A DNA stretch of 64,000 nucleotides from Selenomonas sp. oral taxon 920 (GTDB lineage Bacteria; Bacillota; Negativicutes; Selenomonadales; Selenomonadaceae), in assembly GCF_001717585.1 (NCBI RefSeq), contig NZ_CP017042.1, positions 1,201,001-1,265,000 of the forward strand, given 5' to 3'. Below the pieces are notes generated by a model that saw only the letters and a list, made by a program, of their open reading frames with translations, was not told where the DNA came from and ran no database searches. Each line of letters opens with the position of its first letter. Position 1 is the first letter of the stretch. A program made the position numbers and the translations under genes. This document shows positions 35,717-37,538 of the stretch, in pieces.

Positions 35717-36332
35717 TGCGTAACTCAACCTCCGCTTTCTCTAACTCTCCATCGTGAACCATGTTCAAAATATAAGGGCGCAGTGCCATGCGCCAAAACG
35801 CCGTTCGCTCTCTGCTCGTTGACAGCATCGCCCGCATCTCGCGGCGCAGATGTGCAACGCGTTCGAGCCATTGACCAAAAGCCTCCGGATAGAGTTGCTC
35901 AAGCTCCATCCGTATCGCGCGCGAAAGCGCGGGGCTTTCCCCACCCGTTGAGACAGTCAGCAGGAAATCACCGCGCCGAACGCTCGATGGAATCTGAAAG
36001 GAGGACGCAGACGGATCGTCGATGACGTTGACAAGAATGTCACGCTCCTCTGCTTCCGCTGCAACCTCGGCATTGACCGCAGGGCAGTCCGTCGCAGCAT
36101 AGACCAAAAACGCTCCTGCGAGCATACCGTGTGCATAGCGCACCGAATGCCAATCAATACGACCACTGTCCGCAAGCGCGCGAAGCTGCGTCGTCACCGC
36201 AGGCGCAATCACTCGCACCAGTGACCTTTCCCCCGCTGCAAGAATCCCGACAACCTTGCGCTCTGCCACAATGCCGCCGCCGACGACAACGATCAGACGT
36301 CCCGTGAGATCAACATTGAGCGGATACAGCAC
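35670..36332 (-). CDS. Precorrin-2 dehydrogenase / sirohydrochlorin ferrochelatase (SirC/Met8p, CysG N-terminal type)
   Basis: The protein starts YPLNVDLTGRLIVVVGGGIVAERKVVGIL, the NAD-binding fold of the CysG/Met8p family. It continues with DCPAVNAEVAAEAEERDILVNVIDDP and FQIPSSVRRGDFLLTVSTGGESPALSRAIR, all diagnostic. It oxidises precorrin-2 to sirohydrochlorin and, in Met8p-type members, may insert iron. I favour a GTG start at 36332 (220 residues) because GGGGG lies 6 bp upstream; an ATG 24 bp earlier at 36356 is the alternative. It is the first gene of the tetrapyrrole operon. Confidence 0.9.
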   Translation of the reverse strand: MLYPLNVDLTGRLIVVVGGGIVAERKVVGILAAGERSLVRVIAPAVTTQLRALADSGRIDWHSVRYAHGMLAGAFLVYAATDCPAVNAEVAAEAEERDILVNVIDDPSASSFQIPSSVRRGDFLLTVSTGGESPALSRAIRMELEQLYPEAFGQWLERVAHLRREMRAMLSTSRERTAFWRMALRPYILNMVHDGELEKAEVELRNAALDIGAKSSDGSD

Positions 36333-36375
36333 GCAGATCCCCCTAACCAAAAACATGAATCCTATTCACGTTCGT

Positions 36376-36381
36376 ATTATA
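36376..36381 (-). promoter_or_regulatory. -10 box of the probable tetrapyrrole operon promoter
   Basis: The minus strand reads GCGG-TATAAT-ACG about 44 bp upstream of the sirC GTG. No good -35 hexamer is seen at 16-18 bp, so the promoter may need an activator or be weak. Confidence 0.5.
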
Positions 36382-36430
36382 CCGCAAATAGGCAGAAAAT
36401 AAAAGAGGAGAAGCAGCAATCCCCTCTCTT

Positions 36431-36449
36431 TATAGTGATTATCAATGAG
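36431..36449. promoter_or_regulatory. Possible Fur-box-like sequence upstream of the tetrapyrrole operon
   Basis: TATAGTGATTATCAATGAG matches the classical 19-base Fur consensus at 12 of 19 positions, including the central GAT-ATCA core. It lies about 50 bp upstream of the sirC -10 box. This is a by-eye match to a site known for iron-responsive repressors, not a demonstrated site. Confidence 0.25.
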
Positions 36450-36467
36450 TATATTAGTCAGGTACAA

Positions 36468-36633
36468 CTAGGCAGCCGCTGATAAAATAGCCCCTCAGAT
36501 TGGCCCAGATTTTTCGTCCGAACGAGGAAGAAAACCGGGCGCATAGCCAACGCTGTGTAGAGGATTTTTCGTCGAAGTGCGGACAAAAAGATGCGTCAAG
36601 ATGGCGGTACTGAATTTATCAGTGCTTCCCTAG
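36468..36633. repeat. Small repeat-like element with imperfect terminal inverted repeats, overlapping the surE stop codon
   Basis: The ends are related inverted repeats of about 20 bases: left 36468-36487 (CTAGGCAGCCGCTGATAAAA) and right 36614-36633 (CTAGGGAAGCACTGATAAAT on the minus strand). The interior holds two copies of GATTTTTCGTC (36508-36518 and 36563-36573), the first of which is also partly inverted by GTGCGGACAAAAAGAT. The 166-bp unit has no ORF of its own. It looks like a miniature mobile or REP-like element. The right end encodes the last codons and stop of surE (LGKH-stop). Confidence 0.55.
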
Positions 36634-37377
36634 TCTGCCGAATTCCTCCAGCAGTGGATAATCCGTCATATCTACGCCGACCGGCGTCACAGAGATCAGA
36701 CCGTGCTCTACGGCATAGATATCCGTGCCTGCGCCCTTGTCCGTATCGGACACCTCGCCCGCGACCTTGTAGTGCACGCGCCCGTTCTCCTCGATGCGCT
36801 CGAACGCATTGATGTAGTCGCGCCCGCCCTGTCGGCAGAAGACAAACTGCGGGGCATCTCCTGCAAGAGCTTTTGGAAAGTTAATGTTGAGCAGAAACGG
36901 CTGAGCCATTGTCGCCAATACATTATCCATAAATGGCTCGAAATACGCCGCTGCCGCTGCGTACGAGATTTCACTGCCTTCGATCAGAGAGAGCGCAAAC
37001 GACGGAATCCCGTGAAAGAACCCCTCAAAAGCTGCACCGACCGTCCCCGAGTAAATCACATCCGTCCCGAGATTCGAGCCGTGATTGATCCCTGAAAGAA
37101 CAACATCCGGCCGCTCCTCGGCGATCGCATCGAGGTAAAGCTTGCCGCAGTCCGTCGGTGTCCCATCAATTGCCCATGCCCGAATCTCATATTCTGCATC
37201 AAAATTTTCATCGGCACGCACCTCAATCGCGCGACCAATCGTCAGCGCGTGCGATGTACCGCTCTGCTGGTGCATGGGAGCTGCGACAGTGACGGCATGA
37301 CGCTGTGCCAGATGACGTGCGAGCGTTCGGATTCCCTCTGCCGCAATGCCGTCATCATTCAGAATCAGGATATTCAA
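36619..37377 (-). CDS. surE: 5'/3'-nucleotidase SurE
   Basis: SurE is a survival-protein phosphatase that removes phosphate from nucleoside monophosphates. The N-terminus NILILNDDGIAAEGIRTLARHL contains the metal-binding DD. VAAPMHQQSGTSHALT, GTPTDCGKLYL and the LSGINHGSNLGTDVIYSGTVGAA block complete the signature. I place the start at TTG 37377 (252 residues, normal) because GGAGGG lies 6 bp upstream. An ATG at 37398 is possible but sits just after a terminator and lacks an SD. The stop codon lies inside the repeat element at 36468-36633. Confidence 0.93.
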   Translation of the reverse strand: MNILILNDDGIAAEGIRTLARHLAQRHAVTVAAPMHQQSGTSHALTIGRAIEVRADENFDAEYEIRAWAIDGTPTDCGKLYLDAIAEERPDVVLSGINHGSNLGTDVIYSGTVGAAFEGFFHGIPSFALSLIEGSEISYAAAAAYFEPFMDNVLATMAQPFLLNINFPKALAGDAPQFVFCRQGGRDYINAFERIEENGRVHYKVAGEVSDTDKGAGTDIYAVEHGLISVTPVGVDMTDYPLLEEFGRLGKH

Positions 37378-37402
37378 AATGCGCCCTCCTATTCTCATAT
37401 AC

Positions 37403-37429
37403 AAAAAACAGGTTGGGCATACCAACCTG
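37403..37429 (-). terminator. Intrinsic terminator after tRNA-Lys
   Basis: The minus strand reads CAGGTTGG, TATGC, CCAACCTG, then TTTTTTG. It lies 34 bp downstream of the tRNA and 26 bp upstream of the surE start, separating the two. Confidence 0.9.
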
Positions 37430-37462
37430 CTTTCCAGAACCGTCATGCGGATAAAATGCACA

Positions 37463-37538
<76 letters not shown>

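Follow-up and report, generated by a model that had tools for sequence, protein, structure and literature searches.

QMITE1 and QMITE2 of Coxiella, which are short non-autonomous repeats reported in about 50 copies (PMC5896051), and bcr1 of the Bacillus cereus group are among the described systems closest to the element reported here; the excerpts of the bcr1 literature used here describe a group-restricted mobile repeat of ~150 bp with a conserved stem-loop that is present in tens to over a hundred copies (PMC6542083, PMC2267715), and our element resembles it in these respects. With regard to insertion, IS5 has been reported, again as excerpted, to duplicate YTAR (PMC10359306). In the 64,000-bp stretch of Selenomonas sp. 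oral taxon 920 DNA analysed here (the window), a 166-bp segment at the 3' end of surE had been singled out, from its letters alone, as a candidate miniature element. Very probably, this segment belongs to a MITE family resident in the Selenomonas/Centipeda group; an IS5-family transposase acting in trans most likely moved it into a CTAG target, giving SurE a Gly-Lys-His (GKH) end. The kind of element, a MITE with IS5-like ends, is well known and the family itself is new; no description of it was found in the openly licensed PubMed Central papers searched.

A repeat family of Selenomonas and Centipeda

Alignment with other copies resolved the reported span, 36468-36633, exactly into CTAG, a 158-bp element and CTAG. 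The element occupies 36472..36629 and is given here on the plus strand, the orientation in which its RNA is predicted to fold as a near full-length hairpin, with the A end first and the B end last. Comparison with other copies likewise defined the two CTAG copies of the target-site duplication, left at 36468..36471 and right at 36630..36633, which fit the YTAR target given for IS5 in the excerpted source (PMC10359306). The A-end terminal inverted repeat (36472..36487, plus strand) is degenerate at surE, where it reads GCAGCCGCTGATAAAA, the family consensus being GGAATCGCTGATAAAA; the B-end terminal inverted repeat (36610..36629) reads GGAAGCACTGATAAATTCAG on the minus strand. The related ends noticed in the sequence-only reading correspond to inverted-repeat arms of 20 nt that are 80% complementary (36467-36486 / 36615-36634), and the GTCCG/CGGAC pair noticed inside the segment is present and falls in a stem of the family's predicted hairpin. 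Two internal copies of GATTTTTCGTC had also been pointed out; both exist in the surE element, but we rejected the double GATTTTTCGTC as a family feature because, in an alignment of 47 diverse copies, the surE element alone reads so at the second place and most others are GGATTTGCCGAC-like. Except for this internal direct repeat, the main points of that reading were right, the rewriting of surE included. No transposase frame was found in the surE element, for which 158 bp is too short, and just two frames of at least 60 aa extend into it, surE and 36591-36812 (+).

A second copy in the same genome had been named as the observation to look for, and many were found: at least 45 matches at E≤10 and at least 43 at E≤0.001, counts that include the query itself and some pieces of single copies and that are lower bounds, as 40 of 61 candidates were scored. 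Among 31 genomes, the family was matched in 13, comprising 13 of the 14 genomes of the genus and none of the 17 of other genera; here, too, the match counts per genome are lower bounds, with at most 27 candidates scored in each. G013 was the genus genome with no family match, and G003 had a single match (1.4e-9). Counts of the exact end pattern in the genus genomes ranged from 0 to 276, with no occurrence of the pattern read backwards, while a longer exact pattern was found in 107 stretches of a species-level collection, all 80 of the 80 listed being Selenomonas or Centipeda records; Centipeda belongs to the Selenomonadaceae. Among the 31 genomes and the listed matches of the species-level collection, the family was seen only in Selenomonas-type bacteria. 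A 59-bp short form with both MITE ends and little else was also observed in G003 (L093:3708-3766).

For further comparison, 162 oriented copies were assembled; each had a length within 140-175 bp, at least 25 bases of flanking sequence on both sides and an orientation score without a tie, and copies with identical flanks were entered once. Lengths ranged from 149 to 163 bp, with 161 or 162 bp in 114 of the 162. Identity to the nearest copy with unrelated flanks had a median of 97.5% (flank-related pairs excluded; the median is the same without that exclusion), and 18 of the 162 had an identical counterpart of this kind, which argues for recent spread somewhere in the genus. The surE copy is at most 86% identical to any other copy and, judged by sequence, is older than those that spread recently.

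Perfect 4-bp duplications flank 99 of the 162 copies, as compared with a mean of 14.9 and a maximum of 27 in 1000 shuffles of the pairing, and 63 copies have no perfect duplication; 3- and 5-bp duplications stayed inside the shuffle range. YTAR accounts for 55 of the 99 perfect duplications (TTAA 28, CTAA 12, TTAG 8, CTAG 7), and the other 44 include TATA (11), TAAA (7) and others. Exact empty sites with one 4-bp copy kept were found for four distinct insertions (L010/L217, L107, L172/L165 and L180/L224), the empty site of L107 being matched in seven loci from five places; only sites with an exact junction of the flanks and a 4-base overlap were counted, and a looser rule (<30 extra bases), which labelled 67 rows, many of them redundant or poor, was not used. 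Two individual copies may be mentioned here. At L107:949-2199 (G012), a MITE with a TTAA duplication lies inside a decayed copy of the probable partner insertion sequence described below, and at L064:1504-1664, as compared by eye with L203, a MITE seems to interrupt a frame, which now ends in YLRKH but continues uninterrupted through the empty site of the relative. The idea that the surE segment is a mobile or repeat unit is borne out by the interspersed family, the 4-bp duplications, the exact empty sites and presence/absence at surE. Short, with inverted ends, a fixed-length duplication, interspersed copies, empty sites, no transposase and ends like those of an insertion sequence, the segment can be classed on sequence grounds as a MITE.

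The SurE C-terminus with and without the element

The minus-strand frame at 36619..37476, which the open reading frame listing begins at the furthest upstream start (GTG), is presumably surE, a name carried over from the earlier reading. Its true start probably lies near 37380; in the other 13 genomes of the genus, surE orthologues align with the query interval 36640-37380 from residue 2 on, and each of the 14 genus genomes has a SurE match. A tRNA-Lys (ctt) gene lies just upstream of surE at 37463-37538 (-), and the frame taken from its furthest start overlaps it by 14 bases. The surE TGA is at 36621-36619, within the right end of the element, and the frame thus closes eleven bases into it; the last codons, Gly-Lys-His-stop (36619..36630, minus strand), are read from the last base of the duplicated CTAG, which supplies the first G, and from the element. 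It had accordingly been correct to assign the final surE residues and the TGA to the right end. Joining the window flanks with one CTAG kept yields ...EEFGRLVVPD*, versus ...EEFGRLGKH* with the insert, and joining the flanks of G005 gives the same GRLVVPD* tail as in the window genome (G000). The insertion therefore did rewrite the SurE C-terminus, as had been supposed, but the change, from VVPD (four residues) to GKH (three), is tiny.

The element is absent at surE in 11 of the 14 genus genomes. When SurE C-termini were compared, as the sequence-only reading had advised, these 11 genomes were found to have short, species-variable tails unlike the one in the window, and to carry a conserved ACTATAAA before the terminator, 5 to 28 bases past the surE stop. 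A scan of the window placed a terminator-like hairpin downstream of surE at 36401..36430 (minus strand), displaced by the insertion by 162 bp, and alignment showed a similar sequence after surE in all 14 genus genomes. Beyond the hairpin, the minus strand carries the frames 36356-35670, 35728-34397 and 34437-33502, which are, from their sequence, probably siroheme/heme genes. The insertion is present at the same surE site in G005, where the middle of the element has been lost (score 66 versus a shuffle maximum of 22). G007 (L079) has a separate, internally deleted remnant near the surE end in the opposite orientation (score 50 versus a shuffle maximum of 23); its surE stop comes from a CTGATAA that lies mostly before the aligned remnant stretch and that is, by eye, presumed to be the other end of that remnant. 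Because the SurE tail varies across the genus, the effect of the new GKH tail on SurE is probably slight.

Gene ends elsewhere are also affected. By raw count, and with genes called by a simple codon-usage model rather than taken from annotation, 21 of the 162 copies provide an adjacent gene with its stop codon, and in 2 of 162 a called reading frame extends across the copy. The stop falls at base 11 of the element in 12 of the 21 cases (GKH, RKH and RNR tails), at base 19 in 5 (ESLIK) and elsewhere in 4; the protein tails of L014 and L217 are alike, as are those of L142 and L213, and each pair may represent the same insertion. On these numbers, roughly one copy in eight would terminate the reading frame of an adjacent gene.

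A candidate transposase source and rival readings

An IS5-family insertion sequence (IS) of ~1.24 kb with ends similar to those of the MITE was found in G003. Its transposase, of 332 aa, matches NF033581 (transpos_IS5_4) at 4.1e-91, and also PF01609 with PF05598. Matches to the transposase occur in 8 of the 14 genus genomes, at full length and with no internal stops in G003, G006, G007 and G008; in the window genome a single 53-residue piece containing a stop was found, and a profile search of this genome returned no match to PF01609 or PF05598. The consensus ends of the MITE share 15/18 and 17/18 bases with the IS ends at L097, while the ends of other IS copies vary from copy to copy, and inspection by eye saw no likeness of IS and MITE beyond the ends. 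Seven IS copies have both ends, with a perfect 4-bp duplication in one, 3/4 matching bases in five and 2/4 in one. Several IS copies in G003 run into contig ends of that draft assembly (L086, L087, L089-L092), and the IS copy number in G003 is therefore probably under-counted. Other PF01609 transposases of the genus were considered as partner and found no support, as none of 15 loci, nor L099, has an end pair at IS distance; among the loci checked, L235 has only a MITE pair, L251 a single IS-type end and L240 a weak single end. By comparison of end sequences, the ~1.24-kb IS is the probable autonomous partner of the MITE family.

The family could be a MITE mobilised by a different transposase, unseen or lost, the IS5-family IS merely having similar ends. 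In favour of this reading, some genomes rich in the MITE show no match to the transposase of the IS, and MITE number does not track that transposase: G002, G005, G010 and G011 have 81 to 178 exact ends and no transposase match (E≤1e-5), and G003 has the IS at several sites, yet 9 MITE ends and one weak MITE match. The ends also differ slightly (GGAAGC/GGAATC in the MITE, often GGAAAC/GGAATC in the IS), and the IS duplications are mostly imperfect. We nevertheless consider a different mover rather improbable, given that the 15 other PF01609 loci lack a matching end pair at IS distance, that a 4-bp duplication with YTAR in 55 of 99 cases fits the IS5 type, and that spread as recent as the median identity of 97.5% indicates should have left the mobilising transposase visible in some genome. 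We assign practically no probability to the view that a short inverted repeat arose by chance where the SurE C-terminus varies anyway, with no mobile element at all; SurE C-termini do vary across the genus, but the interspersed family, with its at least 43 matches in the window genome, the duplications, the exact empty sites, and presence/absence at the very surE site argue against chance.

A further possibility is that the element is retained because it works as a structured RNA or as a module of mRNA 3' ends, selection acting on one strand to fold, as has been proposed for NEMIS, in which stem-loops are RNase III targets. The surE copy is predicted to fold at -55.4 kcal/mol on the plus strand (z -4.0) and at -43.5 kcal/mol on the surE-sense strand (z -1.4), and this strand gives the more stable fold in 161 of the 162 copies (mean -73.3 versus -46.6 kcal/mol); RNAalifold predicted 39 pairs, 12 with two-sided changes, on the folding strand versus 19 and 5 on the other. 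As a fold favours G-U on the strand that is folded, a strand-symmetric pair set was used, with which a lean to G-U was counted in 18 pair columns and a lean to A-C in 6 across the 162 copies, and in 19 and 6, respectively, across the 47 diverse copies (p = 0.015); the columns counted are not independent, and the thresholds were of our own choosing. Against selection for such an RNA, single-copy variants have no lean (10 changes from Watson-Crick to G-U, 10 to A-C), and variants in up to five copies number 37 to G-U versus 49 to A-C. Base composition by itself accounts for about -7 of the -21 kcal/mol strand difference, the most extreme of 150 shuffles reaching -21.3. A preference of the hairpin strand for sense orientation was unsupported, with 59 copies sense and 49 antisense to tandem flanking genes and hence no clear bias; the surE mRNA carries the complement of the folding strand, and 36300-36750 gave no Rfam match, and so no known RNA family, up to E = 1. 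We thus regard an RNA kept for its function as doubtful. The family-level lean to G-U, with no lean in single-copy variants, makes an RNA-hairpin constraint plausible for source elements during spread rather than for resident copies, on evidence that is moderate and mixed. It is conceivable, if unlikely, that the family is a selfish MITE that combines such selection of one strand to fold as hairpin RNA during spread with the use of its CTGATAA end motif as a portable stop codon, which would leave stereotyped tails (GKH/RKH, RNR, ESLIK) on unrelated proteins across the genus; insertions at gene ends would then be tolerated because both ends close the frame within 11 or 19 bp.

Proposed course of events and comparison with known systems

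In the reading that we favour, an IS5-family transposase, supplied in trans, would have moved the MITE into CTAG at the 3' end of surE, duplicating that CTAG on insertion; since the MITE ends closely resemble the ends of the IS5-family IS of the genus, its transposase is most likely the mover. The surE frame now takes in 11 bp of the element and closes at the TGA within the CTGATAA end motif, so that the VVPD tail of SurE has been exchanged for GKH and the terminator-like hairpin is left in place downstream. Judging from the common site and flanks, the insertion probably predates the split from G005, whose copy has since lost its middle. The surE copy is probably a fixed, decaying relic, as the search of its own genome brought up no intact transposase of this type.

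The analysis brings to light a mobile repeat that is abundant in the Selenomonas/Centipeda group, with up to 276 exact ends per genome, along with its probable autonomous partner, and at surE the states before and after insertion show cleanly how a mobile element has altered the terminus of a conserved protein. For work on these genomes, it matters that MITE copies can blur gene ends in the genus and that IS copies coincide with contig ends in one draft assembly (G003).

The family is linked to the IS5 family (the NCBIfam NF033581 group, with E. coli IS5) by ends that resemble those of the genus IS of that family, and, as far as the excerpted source describes IS5, by a 4-bp duplication (PMC10359306), which is YTAR in 55 of the 99 perfect MITE cases but not in the other 44. 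Unlike the IS, which is ~1.24 kb long and has a transposase gene, the MITE of 158 bp has no transposase and no likeness to the IS that was seen beyond the ends. From the excerpts of the respective sources, QMITE1 and QMITE2 share with our family the overlap, by a few bp, of some gene C-terminal ends, to which they give a stop codon or a short tail, and QMITE2 also shares a very stable predicted stem; they differ in host and sequence, and in duplications of 2-3 nt or 7-11 nt as opposed to the 4 bp of the Selenomonas MITE (PMC5896051). The enterobacterial repeats RU-1, RU-2 and RU-3 (PMC2759123) and the Correia/NEMIS repeats (PMC2229807) are described, in the passages at hand, as similarly MITE-like, with stem-loops, and as fused to reading frames, C-terminal ends among them. 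The RU repeats are set apart by TA duplications in place of the 4-bp duplication of the Selenomonas MITE and, in the case of RU-1, by the addition of up to tens of residues (PMC2759123), whereas the Selenomonas MITE stops the frame at base 11 or 19 in 17 of 21 cases.
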